Source of the DNA: Pseudomonadota bacterium
Lineage (GTDB): Bacteria > Desulfobacterota > Desulfovibrionia > Desulfovibrionales > Desulfomicrobiaceae
Direction of reading: 5' to 3'
Length of the DNA stretch: 64,000 nucleotides
Assembly: GCA_018902545.1 (NCBI GenBank)
Contig: JAHIQM010000002.1
Span: 186,001 to 250,000 of the forward strand
Below are positions 57,274-64,000 of this stretch, piece after piece. Position 1 is the stretch's first letter. Each line of letters begins with the position of its first letter. A program made the position numbers and the translations under genes. Below the pieces are notes generated by a model. The model did no database searches. It saw nothing but the letters and a program-made list of their open reading frames with translations, and was not told the DNA's origin.

Positions 57274-57694
57274 GCCATTCCTCCATTTTTTAAGGATTTG
57301 GCTTTAAAAAAAACATTCGCTGCGAACCTGCCCCGCGCCTCGAAAAATCACCCTCACGCCCCGGACAACGCCACCATCACCCCCTTTACCGGCTCAAAGT
57401 TCGCAACAGGAATACAACTCCCTGAAACGACATATCTTTCATTCTTCGGCAAGATCCTTTCCCCAAAATACCCACCAGACCTATTCGTCCGAATCAAATC
57501 GACAAACTTCATTTAGCAGCCTCCATTTCCTTGACTCTCTATTTTGAGAGGCATATCTCCTGGAGTGGATACGATAACGTATAAGCACCGAGCATATTCG
57601 TATGCATTCTCAATAGTTTTTTTCTGAACTCGTTTTTATTCGAAAATTTTTAGACTCTCATTCCATGCATTTTTTTCTGTATGGTTTGATGCGC
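57274..57694. other. AT-rich divergent intergenic region
   Basis: About 420 bp between mraZ and the hyf-like operon without a credible gene. It has a CTCTC-TATTTT-GAGAG hairpin at 57535-57550 overlapping a TTGACT hexamer (57531-57536). Its composition is much richer in A/T than the genes on either side, as expected of a promoter region. Confidence 0.45.
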
Positions 57695-57708
57695 ATGATC
57701 TTTATCAA
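57695..57708 (+). promoter_or_regulatory. FNR/CRP-like box upstream of the hyf-like operon
   Basis: ATGAT-CTTT-ATCAA matches the FNR consensus TTGAT-N4-ATCAA at nine of ten positions. Its centre is about 70 bp upstream of the first ATG. If it acts at -41.5, transcription would start near 57743. A regulator of the FNR/CRP family is inferred, not seen. Confidence 0.45.
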
Positions 57709-57771
57709 TTTACTAGCTAAATGATGTAAACATAGAGAAGAAAAAGTGATTTTTTTCACTTGCCAAAAAAA

Positions 57772-59715
57772 ATGGACATAGATCTTTTTCTAACGTGTGC
57801 ATTGGCAGCAATGCTGGCCAGTTTGCTTGCAAGTCATACAGCCCCGCGCTGGTGGATTGTTTTCACCCTGACAGCTGCGACATGCGCATTTGTTGCCGCC
57901 GCAATGGTTCTTTCCGGCATCCCTGCCTGGGAATGGCGCAGCGAGCACACCGTTGGCGGCGAACAGATCTTCATGCGCCTGGACGAGATCAGCGCTTTTT
58001 TTCTTCTGCTCCTCTGCGTTGTCGGTGCGGCCGGAGCCATATATTGCCGCTCATACTGGCCGCAGCAGGCCCACCCGCGCTCCGCCGGACAGGGGCGTCT
58101 GTGGTGGAGCGCCCTGCTGACCAGCATGGGCCTGGTGCTGACCCAGTCCAACGGACTGCATTTTCTTCTGGCCTGGGAATCCTTTGCCTTAAGCGCCTAT
58201 TTTCTGGTTACCCTGGACCGCAAAGACCCTGCCGTCCGCTCCGCCGGGTGGCTCTATCTGGGCGCATCCCATGCCGGAACCCTGGCGCTGTTCGGCTTTT
58301 TCGCGGCGCTGGCCGCGCAAACCGGCAGTTGGGAACTTGGCCCCATGACGGACCAAGCGTCCCTGGCTCCACTCTTCTGGATTGCCCTGCTTGGCTTTGG
58401 CATCAAGGCGGGCGTCTTCCCCTTGCACATCTGGCTGCCTTCAGCCCACGCCAGCGCTCCGAGTCACGTTTCGGCCATCATGTCCGGCGTGGCCATCAAA
58501 ATGGGCATTTACGGGCTGGTCCGTTTCAGCACATGGCTCCCGTTACCCGTAGAGGCGGGCTGGGTCGTGGTCGGACTAGGCTGCGCCAGCGCGGTTTTGG
58601 GGGTCGCTTTCGCCCTTGGTCAGCACGATCTGAAGCGACTGCTGGCCTATCACAGCGTGGAAAACATCGGCATCATCCTCATTGGCCTGGGCTTCGCCAT
58701 GATCGCCCTTGATCACGGCCGCCCGCAGTGGGGACTGATGGCCCTGGCCGGAGGTTTGCTGCACGTCTGGAATCACGGGCTTTTCAAGGCCCTGCTTTTC
58801 CTGGGCGCGGGCGCCGTGCTGCATTCCACGGGAACGCGGGAGATGAGCCGCATGGGCGGCCTGTGGAAGGCCATGCCCTGGACCGCGTCCCTCTTCACTC
58901 TCGGGGCAGTGGCCATCTGCGGGCTGCCGCCGCTCAACGGATTCGTCAGCGAATGGCTGGTCTACCGGGGCCTTTTCGATGCCGCCCGGCTCAAGTCCGC
59001 CGCGGCTGTTGGTGCGGTGCCCGCCGCCATCCTGCTGGCCGTGACCGGAGCCCTGGCCCTGGCCTGCTTCGTCAAGGTTTGCGGCGTGGTCTTCCTTGGC
59101 GCTGCGCGCACGAAATGCGCGCAAGACGCCCGGGAGTGCGACGCGGGAATGCGCGCGGGCATGGCCATTCTGGCCGCCGGGTGCCTTGCCGTGGGTCTCG
59201 CACCCGCCTTCATCTGGCCCTCGCTCCTGCGGGTCGCGCAGGCCTGGCTGCGCATCGGACCGGTGCCGGGCGTCCCGAATCATCTTGAGCCACTGGGAGT
59301 CGCGCACCCGCTTCTGGCCCTGGCCATCCTGGCCCTGGGAGCGGCTGCACTCGCCATGCTGCGCGGCCGCTGCAGACGCGCCGTGACCTGGGACTGCGGC
59401 TACTCGGCTCCAAGCGCGCGCATGCAGTACAGCGCGGGCTCCTTTGCCGGAATCATCACCGCCTGGTTCGCCTGGATCCTGCGGCCGGTTGTGCGCGCGG
59501 ATCTGCCCGTCGCAATCTTCCCCGCCAGGTCAGCCATAAATAGCCACACCCCCGAAACGGTTCTCGAAAGTGTGATCTATCCGGCCGGAAACCGGGTCTT
59601 GCGCGTGGCCGACTTCGTGCGCACATTCCAGCACGGACGCGTCCAGTCGTATCTTATTTACCTTTGCGCGGCTCTAGTGGTCCTGGCCGTCGCCGTGATT
59701 CTGTACACCGAGTAG
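57772..59715 (+). CDS. hyfB: HyfB/NuoL-like proton-translocating subunit
   Basis: Antiporter-like membrane subunit of a hydrogenase-4-type or related complex. It has 647 residues from ATG 57772; a TTG at 57760 is possible, and neither has a clear RBS. About 16 helices. The conserved core is LLAWESFALSAYFLV near residue 135, HIWLPSAHASAPSHVSAIMSG near residue 225 with the helix lysine in VAIKMGIYGL, LKRLLAYHSVENIGI near residue 287 and NHGLFKALLFLGAG. A long C-terminal extension ends in QHGRVQSYLIYL and a last helix. Confidence 0.88.
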   Translation: MDIDLFLTCALAAMLASLLASHTAPRWWIVFTLTAATCAFVAAAMVLSGIPAWEWRSEHTVGGEQIFMRLDEISAFFLLLLCVVGAAGAIYCRSYWPQQAHPRSAGQGRLWWSALLTSMGLVLTQSNGLHFLLAWESFALSAYFLVTLDRKDPAVRSAGWLYLGASHAGTLALFGFFAALAAQTGSWELGPMTDQASLAPLFWIALLGFGIKAGVFPLHIWLPSAHASAPSHVSAIMSGVAIKMGIYGLVRFSTWLPLPVEAGWVVVGLGCASAVLGVAFALGQHDLKRLLAYHSVENIGIILIGLGFAMIALDHGRPQWGLMALAGGLLHVWNHGLFKALLFLGAGAVLHSTGTREMSRMGGLWKAMPWTASLFTLGAVAICGLPPLNGFVSEWLVYRGLFDAARLKSAAAVGAVPAAILLAVTGALALACFVKVCGVVFLGAARTKCAQDARECDAGMRAGMAILAAGCLAVGLAPAFIWPSLLRVAQAWLRIGPVPGVPNHLEPLGVAHPLLALAILALGAAALAMLRGRCRRAVTWDCGYSAPSARMQYSAGSFAGIITAWFAWILRPVVRADLPVAIFPARSAINSHTPETVLESVIYPAGNRVLRVADFVRTFQHGRVQSYLIYLCAALVVLAVAVILYTE

Positions 59716-59721
59716 TCAGCC

Positions 59722-60447
59722 ATGAACCCAATCAACAAGGCATCCGCAGTTATGTACATTAATCTCATACAGATAGCCGAATCCTTTGGCGTTTCCGAGC
59801 AGGTCGTGACCGAATGGGTGCGCCGGGAAGGCATGCCTCACGTGCACGACCGGGACCGCATCCTTTTTGAACGTTCCCAGGTCATGGACTGGGCGGCCCG
59901 CCGAGGACTCGCCGGACTGGGCGGATTTCTCCTGGAACCGACCCCGTCCCAGGCCAATTCGCGGGAACTGGCCACGCTGCTTACGCGCGGCGGCATCTGG
60001 CGTGACATCGCCCCCGGCGACCTCGACAATCTGTTTCAGCGCATCGTACGCAGCCTGCCCGGCCTGTCACCGACAGTCATGAACCTGCTCATTCAGCGCA
60101 TTTCGGCTCCCGGCGGCATCACCTCCGCCCCGGTGGGTGGCGGGTTCGCCCTGCCCCACCCGGCCATGCGTATCGCCCTTGGGGAAGCCTGCGCCCTGAC
60201 AGCCCTGATCCAGCTCAGTGGCCCCTGGGCCGGAATTCAGGCCCCGGACAAAATCCCGGTCACCCGCCTGCTGTTCTTTATTTCCCCCACTCCCCGCCTG
60301 CACGTGAACATGCTGGGCCTGCTGGCACGCAGCATCGCCTCGGGCCAGTTGACCCAGGCCATGGATCAGGGCGCGGATGACGCAGCCTTGCTTGAAATCT
60401 TTGCCTCCTGCGCCGAGAAGCACAGCGCCGCCGAGGCAGGACGATGA
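59722..60447 (+). CDS. HTH plus PTS EIIA-like protein
   Basis: The 241-residue protein has two parts. Residues about 11-65 resemble an excisionase/MerR-type helix-turn-helix (INLIQIAESFGVSEQVVTEWVRREGMPHVHDRDRILF). Residues about 85-235 resemble the PtsN-type EIIA domain, with GGFALPHPAMRIAL, where His is the phosphoacceptor position in EIIA. It may sense phosphorelay state and adjust the operon or the complex; that is inference. It lies 6 nt after hyfB. ATG 59722 is used; ATG 59752 is the alternative. Confidence 0.75.
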   Translation: MNPINKASAVMYINLIQIAESFGVSEQVVTEWVRREGMPHVHDRDRILFERSQVMDWAARRGLAGLGGFLLEPTPSQANSRELATLLTRGGIWRDIAPGDLDNLFQRIVRSLPGLSPTVMNLLIQRISAPGGITSAPVGGGFALPHPAMRIALGEACALTALIQLSGPWAGIQAPDKIPVTRLLFFISPTPRLHVNMLGLLARSIASGQLTQAMDQGADDAALLEIFASCAEKHSAAEAGR

Positions 60448-60647
60448 TCGCCGCGCTCCTGGCTTTTTGCGGCCTTGGACTGATCCTGGCTGCGGGAGTG
60501 GGCCGCACGCATCCGCGCATCTGGCTTGGGCTCAATTTTTCCGCCACCCTGTGCGGCCTGTATGCGGCCGTGACGATTTTGCTCACCGGCGAAACCTGGC
60601 TTTGGCGCGGCGGGTTGGCCCAGGGAGGCGAAATCCCGAGATCATGA
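60444..60647 (+). CDS. 67-residue two-helix protein, N-terminal HyfB-like remnant
   Basis: ATG 60444 overlaps the preceding stop (ATGA). The protein has two hydrophobic segments. It aligns without gaps to residues about 16-65 of the HyfB encoded upstream: T.PR.W near its residue 23, C and AA in the second helix, then W-x-WR and GGE (15 identities over about 45 positions). It then stops at TGA 60645-60647, just where HyfB enters its antiporter core. Either a real mini-subunit or the front of a decayed paralogue. Confidence 0.65.
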   Translation: MIAALLAFCGLGLILAAGVGRTHPRIWLGLNFSATLCGLYAAVTILLTGETWLWRGGLAQGGEIPRS

Positions 60648-60758
60648 TCCGGCGATGAAGCCGGAAAAATGCAGCATGGCCGCCTGCACCTCTACATCCT
60701 GTATGTTTTCCTCGGAGTCACGGCTCTGGGACTTATGATTCTGCTGGGAGGAGTGTAA
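60648..60758 (+). pseudogene. C-terminal HyfB-like fragment in the same frame
   Basis: Directly after the TGA the same reading frame stays open to TAA 60756-60758. From ATG 60669 it encodes MQHGRLHLYILYVFLGVTAL and a short tail, which matches the last helix of HyfB (QHGRVQSYLIYL). The roughly 550-residue antiporter core of a HyfB is missing between this and the 67-residue piece. The region contains the RBS of hyfC (GGGAGGAG), and its stop overlaps the hyfC start (TAATG). A 6-bp hairpin TCCGGC-GATGAA-GCCGGA directly follows the TGA. Confidence 0.6.
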
Positions 60759-61663
60759 TGCCACTATACATTGATATTGTACTGCGCCTCTTGCTCTGGC
60801 TGCTCCTGGCTCCACTGCTTCCGGGCATCATCAACAAGGTCAAGGCATGGGTGGCCGGACGGCAGGGGCCGCCGGTGCTGCAGCTCTATTACGACCTGGC
60901 ACGTTTGTGGCGCAAGAGTGTGGTCTTAAGCACCCTGGCCTCGCCCGGCTTCATCATCGCCCCGGCCGTGGCCTGGACCGCCGTGGTCGCGGCGGCCCTG
61001 CTCCTGCCCCTGGCCGGAGCGGGCGCGGCGTTCTCCTTTGACGGCGACGTCCTGCTGCTGATCTATTTTCTGGCCCTGGCCCGCTTCTGCACAGCCTGGG
61101 GGGCCATGGAGACGGGCTCCGCCTTCGAGGGCATGGGCGCGGCCCGCGAGGTCAGCTTCGCCGTGCTGGCCGAGATCGGCATCATCACCGCTGTGCTGAC
61201 CCTGGTAGTGCAGTCGGGCAGCATCGCCCTGTCGTCCATGTTCGAGCCACTCCCGGGGCCGGGCGCGGCGCTTCTGGCTGTCGGGCTCTTCATCATCCTG
61301 CTGGCCGAGAACTGCCGCGTGCCTTTTGATGATCCAAACACCCATCTTGAGCTGACCATGATCCACGAAGTCATGGTCCTCGATCACAGCGGCCCGCCCC
61401 TGGCCATGATCCTGCACGGGGCGGCGGTAAAGCTGATGCTTTTTTGCATCTTTCTGGCCCAGGCGGTGCTGCCGCTCTCGGAACTGCCGCTGCTGATCTC
61501 CGTCGCGGCCCTGGCCGGAAGCGTGCTGCTGATCACCGTGGCCGTGGGGCTTGTGGAATCCCTGACTGCGCGCCTGGCGTTCAAGCGGGTCCCGCTGCTC
61601 TTGACCATCGGCTTTCTGTTCTGCCTTTTCCCCCTGATTCTGACCTGGATGGGTGAATCATGA
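60758..61663 (+). CDS. hyfC: HyfC/NuoH-like membrane subunit
   Basis: Membrane anchor subunit next to the hydrogenase or quinone module. It has 301 residues and about eight helices. Typical blocks are VKAWVAGRQGPPVLQLYYDLARLWRK near residue 28 and the acidic ENCRVPFDDPNTHLELTMIHE near residue 185, conserved in HycD/HyfC. The start overlaps the upstream fragment by 1 nt (TAATG) and the end overlaps hyfE by 4 nt. Confidence 0.9.
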   Translation: MPLYIDIVLRLLLWLLLAPLLPGIINKVKAWVAGRQGPPVLQLYYDLARLWRKSVVLSTLASPGFIIAPAVAWTAVVAAALLLPLAGAGAAFSFDGDVLLLIYFLALARFCTAWGAMETGSAFEGMGAAREVSFAVLAEIGIITAVLTLVVQSGSIALSSMFEPLPGPGAALLAVGLFIILLAENCRVPFDDPNTHLELTMIHEVMVLDHSGPPLAMILHGAAVKLMLFCIFLAQAVLPLSELPLLISVAALAGSVLLITVAVGLVESLTARLAFKRVPLLLTIGFLFCLFPLILTWMGES

Positions 61664-62304
61664 ACGACACGCTGAATCTGCTCATCGGTCTGGCCATGGG
61701 TTTGAACCTTCTGGCGCTGGGCACCAGCCGCCTGCCCGTGCTGATCCGCACCGTGGCCGCGCAGGGCGTGCTGCTGGGCCTCTTGCCTCTGGTGCTCGAA
61801 GCCCACGCCCTGGACTGGCGGCTCGTCCTCATCACCCTCGCCACTGTGGCGGGCAAGGGATTGCTCATCCCCTACCTGCTCATCCGCGCCATGCGCTCCG
61901 CCAATATCGCAAGAGAACTCGAACCTTTCATCGGCTACATCCCGTCCCTGCTCCTTGGCGCGGGCGGTACCATCGCCGCTGTGGCCCTGACGCGCTACCT
62001 GCCGCTGCTGCCCGAGCATACCGGCAACCTGCACGTACCGGGGGCCATGGCGCTGATCCTGACCGGCTTCATCCTGCTCATCGGGCGCACCAAGGCCATC
62101 TCCCAGGTCTGTGGCTACCTGATCCTTGAAAACGGCATCTATCTGGCTGGCCTGCTGCTCATCAGCTCCACCCCGATCCTGGTCGAGTTCGGCATCCTGC
62201 TCGACGTCACCGTCGGCGTCTTCGTCATCGGCATCATCGTCGACCGCATCCAGCGGGCCTTCGATTCCCTGGACACCCGCAAACTCACGGCGCTGCACGA
62301 ATGA
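61660..62304 (+). CDS. hyfE: HyfE-like membrane subunit
   Basis: It has 214 residues and about six helices; the C-terminal half resembles NuoK-type subunits. ISQVCGYLILENGIYLAGLLL near residue 148 includes the conserved membrane Glu, and ILLDVTVGVFVIGIIVDRI follows. ATGA overlaps both neighbours. Confidence 0.88.
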   Translation: MNDTLNLLIGLAMGLNLLALGTSRLPVLIRTVAAQGVLLGLLPLVLEAHALDWRLVLITLATVAGKGLLIPYLLIRAMRSANIARELEPFIGYIPSLLLGAGGTIAAVALTRYLPLLPEHTGNLHVPGAMALILTGFILLIGRTKAISQVCGYLILENGIYLAGLLLISSTPILVEFGILLDVTVGVFVIGIIVDRIQRAFDSLDTRKLTALHE

Positions 62305-63737
62305 ACGCATACCTGCTGATCATCATCCCCCTGGCCGGGGCCGTGCTGGCCGCACTGTGGCCGCACAAAGACACCCGGCCCCTGTTTCTGCCCGCCGTGG
62401 GTCTTGTGCACTCGCTCCTGTGCCTTGCGCTCCTGGTCAAACCCACTGCCGTGGACCCGGCGGCGTGGCTGGCCTTCGACCCCCTGGCGCGGGCCATTCT
62501 GCCCGGAGTGTCCCTGCTGTTCCTGATCTGCGCCTGCTACGCGGTGAGCTATCTGCGGCTAAAAGAGCAGGACAACCGCGTCTTTGTCCCGGCCCTGCTG
62601 CTTGTGCTCGGCCTTTTGAGCGCGGGGCACCAGGCCAGACACCTGGGCATCCTGTGGATCGCCACCGAGGCCGTGACCCTGGCCTGCGTGCCCCTGATCC
62701 ATTTCAACGGCACCCCAAGATCCTTCGAGGCGACCTGGAAATACCTGCTCGTCGGCGGCACGGGCATCGCCCTGTCGCTCCTCGGCTCGATCTGCCTGGG
62801 GTACGCGTCCCTGCACGGGGGCGGCAGCGGCGACATCACCTTCACGGCCCTGCTGGCCCAGGGGCCAGGTCTTTCCCGGGTCTGGGTCCTGACCGCCTGG
62901 GTGCTCCTGCTGGTGGGCTACGGCACCAAGATGGGCCTTGCGCCCATGCACACCTGGAAGCCCGACGCTTACGGGGAAAGCCCGGGCATCGTCGGCGCGC
63001 TGCTGGCGGGCGGGGTCACTTCCGTGGCCTTCATGGCTCTTTTGCGCATCAAGTCCGTGGTCCACGCCGCAGGCGCAGGTGCCGTCGCCGACCGCACGCT
63101 GCTGGCCATTGGCCTTTTCTCGGCCCTCATCGCGGCCCTTTTTCTGCTGCGCACCCGCGACTTCAAGCGCATGCTCGCCTATTCGAGCGTTGAGCATATG
63201 GGCATCCTGTGCATCGCCAGCTCTTTGGGCCCTCCCGGCGTATGGGCGGCCCTCTTTCATGTCTGGAGCAACGGGCTGACCAAGGGCGCACTCTTCCTGA
63301 GCGCGGGCAACCTGCAAGCGGCGGCGAACTCGTCCTCCATCGATGAAGTTCGCGGCATGTCCAAGGTCCTGCCGCGCTCCTCCCTGCTCCTTGTGGCCGG
63401 CATGTTCGCCATCACGGCCTGTCCGCCCTTCGGCCCATTTTTTAGCGAGCTGCTCATTGTCCGCACCGCTCTCGCCGCCGGACAGGGATGGGCTGTCGCC
63501 CTCTTTCTGGTCTGCCTGCTGCTGGCTTTTTTCGGGCTCTCGCGCATCGTACTCTCCGTCGTCGACGGACGCCCGCGACGCAAAAAGACAAATGCCGCGC
63601 CCTTCAGGGAATCCGCCGGGCTCATACTCCCCCCACTTTTGCTGCTGGTCGCGTCCCTCTGGCTTGGCCTTTTCACCCCGGACCTGCTTAAAGGCGCCTG
63701 GTCCGCCGCAGTCCTTCAACTCTTCCCGACGCCATGA
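62301..63737 (+). CDS. hyfF: HyfF-like proton-translocating subunit
   Basis: Antiporter-like subunit related to NuoN/HyfF. It has 478 residues and about 13 helices. The core shows WIATEAVTLACVPLI near residue 118, LVGYGTKMGLAPMHTWKPDAYGE near residue 205, FKRMLAYSSVEHMGIL near residue 290 and HVWSNGLTKGALFLSAGN. CPPFGPFFSELLIVR near residue 375 is also conserved. A HyfD homologue is not found between hyfC and hyfF. Confidence 0.9.
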   Translation: MNAYLLIIIPLAGAVLAALWPHKDTRPLFLPAVGLVHSLLCLALLVKPTAVDPAAWLAFDPLARAILPGVSLLFLICACYAVSYLRLKEQDNRVFVPALLLVLGLLSAGHQARHLGILWIATEAVTLACVPLIHFNGTPRSFEATWKYLLVGGTGIALSLLGSICLGYASLHGGGSGDITFTALLAQGPGLSRVWVLTAWVLLLVGYGTKMGLAPMHTWKPDAYGESPGIVGALLAGGVTSVAFMALLRIKSVVHAAGAGAVADRTLLAIGLFSALIAALFLLRTRDFKRMLAYSSVEHMGILCIASSLGPPGVWAALFHVWSNGLTKGALFLSAGNLQAAANSSSIDEVRGMSKVLPRSSLLLVAGMFAITACPPFGPFFSELLIVRTALAAGQGWAVALFLVCLLLAFFGLSRIVLSVVDGRPRRKKTNAAPFRESAGLILPPLLLLVASLWLGLFTPDLLKGAWSAAVLQLFPTP

Positions 63738-64000
63738 ACACACTCGCCCCTTTCTTTTTACTGACCAATGCGTCCAGAATCTCGTGGGCCTCGGTCCCGG
63801 TCTTTTCGGTGACCAAGCTCGTCCGCCTGACCAGTGAAATGCTTCAGTCCGGAGCGCGGCTGTGCTCCTGGTTCGGTGTCCCGGACCAGGACGGCACGAT
63901 CCTGGTCGCGGTACTGGCGCTGGACGCCGAAAGCATCCTCGGCGTGGCCCGCAGCGAACCCGTGAGCGGTTCCTACCCATCACTCACCCCAGCGCACCCC
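63734..64000 (+). CDS. N-terminus of next subunit, HyfG-like (partial)
   Basis: ATG 63734 overlaps the hyfF stop (ATGA) and the frame stays open to the window end (89 codons). The start MNTLAPFFLLTNASRISWASVPV and later CSWFGVPDQDGTILVAVLALD look like the 30-kDa (NuoC-like) part that precedes the large subunit in HyfG-type proteins. Nickel-ligand cysteines, if any, lie outside the window, so hydrogenase activity cannot be judged. Confidence 0.7.
   Translation, partial: MNTLAPFFLLTNASRISWASVPVFSVTKLVRLTSEMLQSGARLCSWFGVPDQDGTILVAVLALDAESILGVARSEPVSGSYPSLTPAHP

Follow-up and report, generated by a model that had tools for sequence, protein, structure and literature searches.

The interval 60444-60758 of the window, by which we mean the whole analysed stretch of 64,000 nucleotides, is in all probability a pseudogene: the remnant of hyfB2, which encoded a second HyfB-type antiporter-like subunit in a Hyf/Ehr-like operon of Desulfomicrobium. 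Two observations carry this assignment. An intact orthologue stands at the same site in ten of the eleven congeners that have the operon, and the frame of the gene was disrupted by a 1519-nt deletion, at which the UGA inside the interval arose. The remnant is known from one draft genome of the species (3.7 Mb in 22 contigs, with the window on a contig of 256 kb).

HyfB-type gene ends within a single frame

When the open reading frames of the window were read, the interval was found to hold both ends of a HyfB-type gene in a single frame with a UGA between them, just as a sequence-only reading of this DNA had described. A 67-codon frame occupies 60444-60647 and is closed by the UGA at 60645-60647. 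The same frame resumes behind it and runs to a stop at 60756-60758, encoding QHGRLHLYILY, which matches the QHGR-x3-Y-x2-Y signature reported earlier, and then the last hydrophobic helix. Within this 3' part lies a 29-codon frame with an ATG of its own (60669-60758).

We compared both parts with the neighbouring HyfB gene (hyfB1) and with hyfB2 of other Desulfomicrobium genomes. The N-terminal part shared 19 of 56 residues with hyfB1 (E 5e-07 in a single comparison) and the C-terminal part 9 of 32 (E 1e-04, likewise a single comparison). The claimed resemblance to the neighbour was thereby borne out; that it was free of gaps was not, as the N-terminal alignment contains one one-residue gap. 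Identity was far higher to hyfB2 of the five nearest congeners, namely 59-67% over 63 codons without gaps for the N-terminal part and 84-90% over 31 codons for the C-terminal part, against 34% and 28%, respectively, to hyfB1. On the strength of these identities and of the shared locus we assigned the remnant to hyfB2 by descent. The antiporter core (PF00361), present in hyfB1, was matched by neither piece in a Pfam search with E values up to 1, and its codons are missing, which agrees with the earlier statement that the core was gone. The sole Pfam match of the two pieces in that search was a weak one to DUF4131, under the cut-off, in the N-terminal piece.

The operon

The gene order is hyfB1, HTH/EIIA gene, hyfB2 remnant, hyfC, hyfE, hyfF, large subunit and small subunit (Table 1). 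For hyfB1 the best NCBIfam model was hydrogenase 4 subunit B, under its cut-off. The EIIA part of the HTH/EIIA protein is a PtsN/EIIA-like domain that retains its PH motif (FALPHP), and relatives of this gene accompany HyfB in loci of Verrucomicrobiota and Elusimicrobia as well. A scan of 57300-61000 gave two promoter-like matches (1.1 expected) and eight terminator-like ones (4.5 expected), one of the latter at 60711-60730, inside the 3' tail of the remnant.

Table 1. Features of the operon in the window, with the parts of the hyfB2 remnant.
Feature	Position	Strand	Evidence and remarks
hyfB1, intact HyfB-type antiporter-like subunit	57760..59715	+	ORF; PF00361 E 1.1e-48; start codon uncertain
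HTH (excisionase-like) and PTS EIIA-like protein	59722..60447	+	ORF; HTH_17 and PTS_EIIA_2 matches under cut-off; synteny
hyfB2 remnant, 5' part, 63 codons and 2 bases	60444..60634	+	70-73% nt identity to first 191 nt of hyfB2 in 5 congeners
20-nt hyfB2 island (PEIMIR codons, nt 1711-1730 of intact gene)	60635..60654	+	best ungapped placement; out of frame; holds UGA 60645-60647
hyfB2 remnant, 3' part, QHGR motif and last helix	60655..60758	+	81-86% nt identity to 3' 104 nt of hyfB2 in 5 congeners
hyfC, intact	60758..61663	+	start overlaps old hyfB2 stop (TAATG)
hyfE, intact	61660..62304	+	ORF and profile match
hyfF, intact antiporter-like subunit	62301..63737	+	ORF and profile match
Fused 30/49-kDa-type large subunit, 5' end	63734..64000	+	runs past window, L112:7735-9216

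hyfB2 is intact in the congeners

A close HyfC (76-94% identity) was present in 11 of the 15 other genomes of the genus. Ten of these operons (L113-L122) carry a full-length hyfB2 of about 646 codons between the HTH/EIIA gene and hyfC (649-694 codons when the open frames are measured stop to stop), and in all ten the HTH/EIIA gene sits between hyfB1 and hyfB2. The PF00361 core was found in hyfB2 of L115, the one congener scanned. These genes are like the remnant in site and in their two end segments and, at eight loci, in their overlaps with the EIIA gene and hyfC; they are unlike it in being intact. The sequence-only reading had proposed a comparison with related Desulfovibrionales, in which a full-length second HyfB would speak for a deletion and the same short form in several species for a genuine mini-subunit. 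The outcome favours the deletion, since the full-length gene stands at this site in ten congeners; the short form occurred in one of the 16 genus genomes only.

The eleventh congener, G004 (L123), has no hyfB2 between EIIA and hyfC. No clear trace of the gene was seen in the 147 nt that separate the two, where 65, 22, 113 and 280 of 500 shuffles did as well as the real sequence against four intact genes, and we count G004 as an absence of hyfB2 without trace. At the DNA level the remnant was matched end to end in its own genome alone; among the other genus genomes eight gave partial or piecewise matches and seven none at the threshold used. A search of its own genome with an intact hyfB2 revealed no copy that had moved elsewhere, the matches being hyfB1, the two pieces of the remnant and less closely related antiporter-like genes.

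Two deletions, an island and the origin of the UGA

Including the stop codon, hyfB2 measures 1941 nt in the five nearest congeners and the remnant 315 nt. Because the missing 1626 nt are a multiple of three (3 x 542), the loss looked like one in-frame deletion, and an in-frame deletion of a duplicated hyfB followed by a nonsense mutation had indeed been suggested. The deletion of a second hyfB is upheld by the intact genes at the same site, and the remainder of the suggestion had to be given up: there are two deletions, of 1519 and 107 nt, which flank a 20-nt island, and the first of them is out of frame.

The evidence for the island is its placement at nt 1711-1730 of hyfB2, where 15, 14, 17, 19 and 17 of its 20 positions are identical in L113-L117, respectively. 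Runner-up placements in these genes reached 12-13 of 20 and the colinear placement on the 5' side 7-8 of 20. Dinucleotide shuffles of the hyfB2 core attained the observed score in none of 2000 trials for L116, two of 2000 for L115 and five of 2000 for L117, and among 315 control 40-mers taken from the operon downstream the L116 score of 35 was not equalled (one scored 34). With gap-tolerant local alignment, L113 and L114 placed the island elsewhere (nt 1401) and L118-L122 gave no match at nt 1711; MAFFT separated the island in one of three settings and left it joined to the N-terminal part in the other two. Each of the five nearest genes gives nt 1711-1730 as its best place, which also falls in the right order between the ends, and on these grounds we judge the island to be a real hyfB2 fragment.

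In its own frame the island reads PEIMIR. Read one step off, ATCATGATC gives UGA (ATC-ATG-ATC out of frame), so that the UGA is a shifted reading of a surviving piece of hyfB2 and not a separate nonsense mutation. A single in-frame deletion with an additional point nonsense mutation was rejected because of the better fit at nt 1711-1730 than on the 5' side. A perfect 6-bp hairpin (UCCGGC-GAUGAA-GCCGGA, 60645-60668) spans the second deletion junction.

We infer the following order of events. A 1519-nt deletion would first have joined codon 64 to codon 571, probably via 3-4 bases of microhomology, and shifted the frame. By eye, CCC or CCCG is common to the sequences that flank this junction in the nearest intact genes, which suggests microhomology joining. 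A second deletion, of 107 nt, would then have joined the 20-nt fragment to the last 104 nt and restored the frame, presumably by chance. Neither deletion touched the ATGA overlap with the EIIA gene or the start region of hyfC, so the downstream genes stay translatable, and the complex most likely now uses HyfB1 together with HyfF as antiporter-like subunits.

Overlaps, frame and substitution rates

Retention of the frame, overlap with the genes on either side and the hyfC ribosome-binding site inside the interval had been taken to argue against random decay. This argument did not hold, as the overlaps and the ribosome site are also found where hyfB2 is intact. The 4-nt ATGA overlap between the HTH/EIIA gene and hyfB2 was seen in all nine loci compared (the genome's own and eight congeners), the start of hyfC overlaps the stop of hyfB2 in all nine, and the own locus does not differ from the eight intact ones in the hyfC start region, which contains GGGAGG. 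The overlaps and the ribosome site are thus ancestral and are no argument for a selected mini-subunit, and hyfC would suffer least from a deletion that left them intact. By chance, both ends would share one frame in about a third of cases.

We also determined dN/dS (NG86) for the two pieces. In pairs that include the own genome it was 0.35-0.53 for the N-terminal piece, versus 0.36-0.67 among the five nearest intact genes, and 0.10-0.17 for the C-terminal piece, versus 0.04-0.18. For pieces this short, values that are not raised would fit a recent deletion and, equally, continued constraint; most of the divergence in these pairs may predate the deletion. For hyfC the ratio in own-genome pairs was 0.08-0.13, and from this we infer that the operon is probably still in use.

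Loss of hyfB2 in other operons

Presence of hyfB2 also varies in the nearest relatives of the operon outside the genus, which are mostly from Verrucomicrobiota (HyfC about 66-74%). To the HyfC tree of 61 rows (L112-L123, L033-L078 minus L034, L167, L168, L171 and L172) we mapped 35 operons with hyfB2, 14 without and 12 unscored, where "with hyfB2" means a HyfB match of more than 1000 nt between the EIIA gene and hyfC, frames having been checked in the ten congeners only. Six of the unscored rows are at contig ends or gave no EIIA gene (L041, L050, L053, L058, L063, L072), and six have their only HyfB behind the EIIA gene (L055, L059, L061, L067, L068, L070). L032 and L034 were left out of the tree as being on the same contigs as L118 and L119; L079, L080 and L083 are in the HyfB tree only, L126 and L127 in neither tree, and L081, L082, L084-L111, L124, L125, L128-L130 and the remaining Elusimicrobia loci were left unscored. 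Among the 49 scored operons the state of hyfB2 changes ten times on the tree, six of the changes being forced by well supported branches. This count is silent on gain versus loss; loss is evident from remnants in four operons.

Besides that of the window, independent hyfB2 remnants were found in two Elusimicrobia (L090 in G120 and L098 in G121) and in one Verrucomicrobiota-like operon (L077). Three of the four (window, G120 and G121) retain both the first and the last helix, and L077 retains an internal piece. The two Elusimicrobia remnants are like that of the window in operon position, in the deletion of the core, in the end helices left behind and in a frame broken between them. They differ from it in detail: in G120 residues 38-494 or thereabouts are missing and a frameshift precedes the last helix, leaving frames of 167 and 32 codons, and G121 has also lost the part from RMQY to QHGR and holds a TAG. 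Relatives such as G234, G218 and G380 have open hyfB2 frames.

A HyfB gene precedes the EIIA gene in 13 of the 14 operons without intact hyfB2, and neither HyfB was found in the 5 kb upstream examined in L049. Conversely, L043, L056 and L060 have hyfB2 and no HyfB was found before EIIA. A further HyfB-like gene lies downstream in L033, L035 and L077, where it might stand in for hyfB2. In the Verrucomicrobiota-type loci L033, L035, L037 and L077 the HyfB-like gene (44-46% to hyfB1) is located about 2.5-3 kb past hyfF, and it occurs both with hyfB2 (L037) and without. A limited search of the openly available literature gave no account of the window remnant or of repeated hyfB2 loss. As a single case the remnant means little, being an ordinary decayed gene; the coming and going of the second HyfB in Ehr-like operons amounts to natural experiments on how many antiporter-like modules are needed.

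Alternative readings of the remnant

The remnant might persist as a leader, either untranslated or translated briefly, through which translation of hyfC is coupled to the upstream genes; we consider this unlikely. The overlaps at both ends of hyfB2 in nine of nine loci inspected are compatible with such a role, as is the fact that the remnants of both the own genome and G120 finish with a short frame whose stop lies at the start of hyfC. In operons without hyfB2, however, no more than 33-148 nt separate the EIIA match from the hyfC match, so a leader is not needed there. A broader form of this idea, to which we give a small chance, is that decay of HyfB2 leaves the first and last helices because these ends retain a function, whether by bracing HyfC as tiny helices or by serving as a leader for hyfC translation, and that the window, G120 and G121 remnants would be convergent mini-forms. 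The three of four remnants with both end helices may leave room for functional ends; four cases cannot settle the matter.

The sequence-only reading had also offered a selected pair of miniature membrane subunits, in which helices of 67 and 29 residues would be made and would cap or space the complex where HyfB2 sat. The first helix of the N-terminal piece and the C-terminal piece are clearly hydrophobic (the second N-terminal helix is borderline) and no relaxation is visible in dN/dS. The 67-codon frame keeps its ATG behind a purine-rich stretch and the 29-codon frame has an ATG as well, so translation of both is possible. Moreover, the separate core deletion in G120 left an open 167-codon piece and a 32-codon frame with the last helix, and G121 keeps the same two ends. 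Against this stands the distribution of the short form, which is absent from the 15 other genus genomes, with G004 having no hyfB2 between EIIA and hyfC at all. No short form common to related species was seen in the 16 genus genomes or, by eye, in the stretch preceding hyfC at 13 loci that lack an intact hyfB2. Ten of the 14 scored operons without intact hyfB2 retain nothing recognisable at the site, and L077 retains an internal piece and not the ends. G120 and G121 carry frameshifts and have near relatives with intact hyfB2, so plain decay is enough to produce a similar pair of short frames. In the same search among 63 phylum-mates of G120, which yielded 30 Elusimicrobia loci with a strong HyfC, only in G120 and G121 themselves, two of the 30, was a long HyfB match ahead of hyfC missing. 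We therefore give miniature subunits little credence and retain the pseudogene as the most likely explanation.

An assembly artefact that joined hyfB1 to hyfB2 is highly improbable, even though the genome is a draft of 22 contigs: both ends are far closer to hyfB2 (59-67% and 84-90%) than to hyfB1 (34% and 28%), the junctions are in the interior of a contig of 256 kb, and collapsed paralogues would not be expected to leave a 20-nt island in colinear order between two deletions. Reading of the UGA as selenocysteine, to give one fused two-ended protein, is very unlikely: SelB is encoded in the genome (360.9 bits, over cut-off) and a 6-bp hairpin lies directly 3' of the UGA (56-nt fold, z -2.04, with 8 of 200 shuffles as good), but its loop starts 6 nt past the UGA, nearer than is usual for bacterial SECIS elements, no Rfam family was found in 60300-60900 up to E 5, and the UGA is due solely to the out-of-frame fragment, with no in-frame counterpart in intact genes.

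Type of complex and comparison with known systems

HyfC of the operon is closer to homologues from Verrucomicrobiota (about 66-74%) than to the best ones from other Desulfobacterota (about 46-53%), which suggests that the operon was transferred between phyla. In L126 (G025) and L127 (G083), from the same order, an HTH/EIIA-like gene and a HyfB gene are located downstream of hyfC-hyfE-hyfF and not upstream.

The large subunit belongs to the Pfam family Complex1_49kDa, and no CxxC motif was found in its 493 aa or in that of L113, the one congener examined. In PMC6349859, Ehr is described as a group-4-hydrogenase-like operon whose large subunit lacks the Ni/Fe-binding residues, and by this criterion the absence of CxxC indicates that the host complex is Ehr-like and not a NiFe hydrogenase. 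The window operon thus resembles the Ehr complexes of that description in a large subunit without Ni-Fe ligands. With the membrane arm of Hydrogenase-4/FHL-2, as outlined in PMC7384014, it shares subunits of the HyfB, HyfC, HyfE and HyfF types. It is unlike that system in the two HyfB genes found in the genus and in the large subunit without CxxC, and the ORF lists contain no further antiporter-like gene between hyfB1 and the small subunit. According to the same paper, the extra subunits HyfDEF of Pectobacterium can be removed without loss of H2 production. This removal agrees with the view that a complex can do without antiporter-like subunits other than the first.
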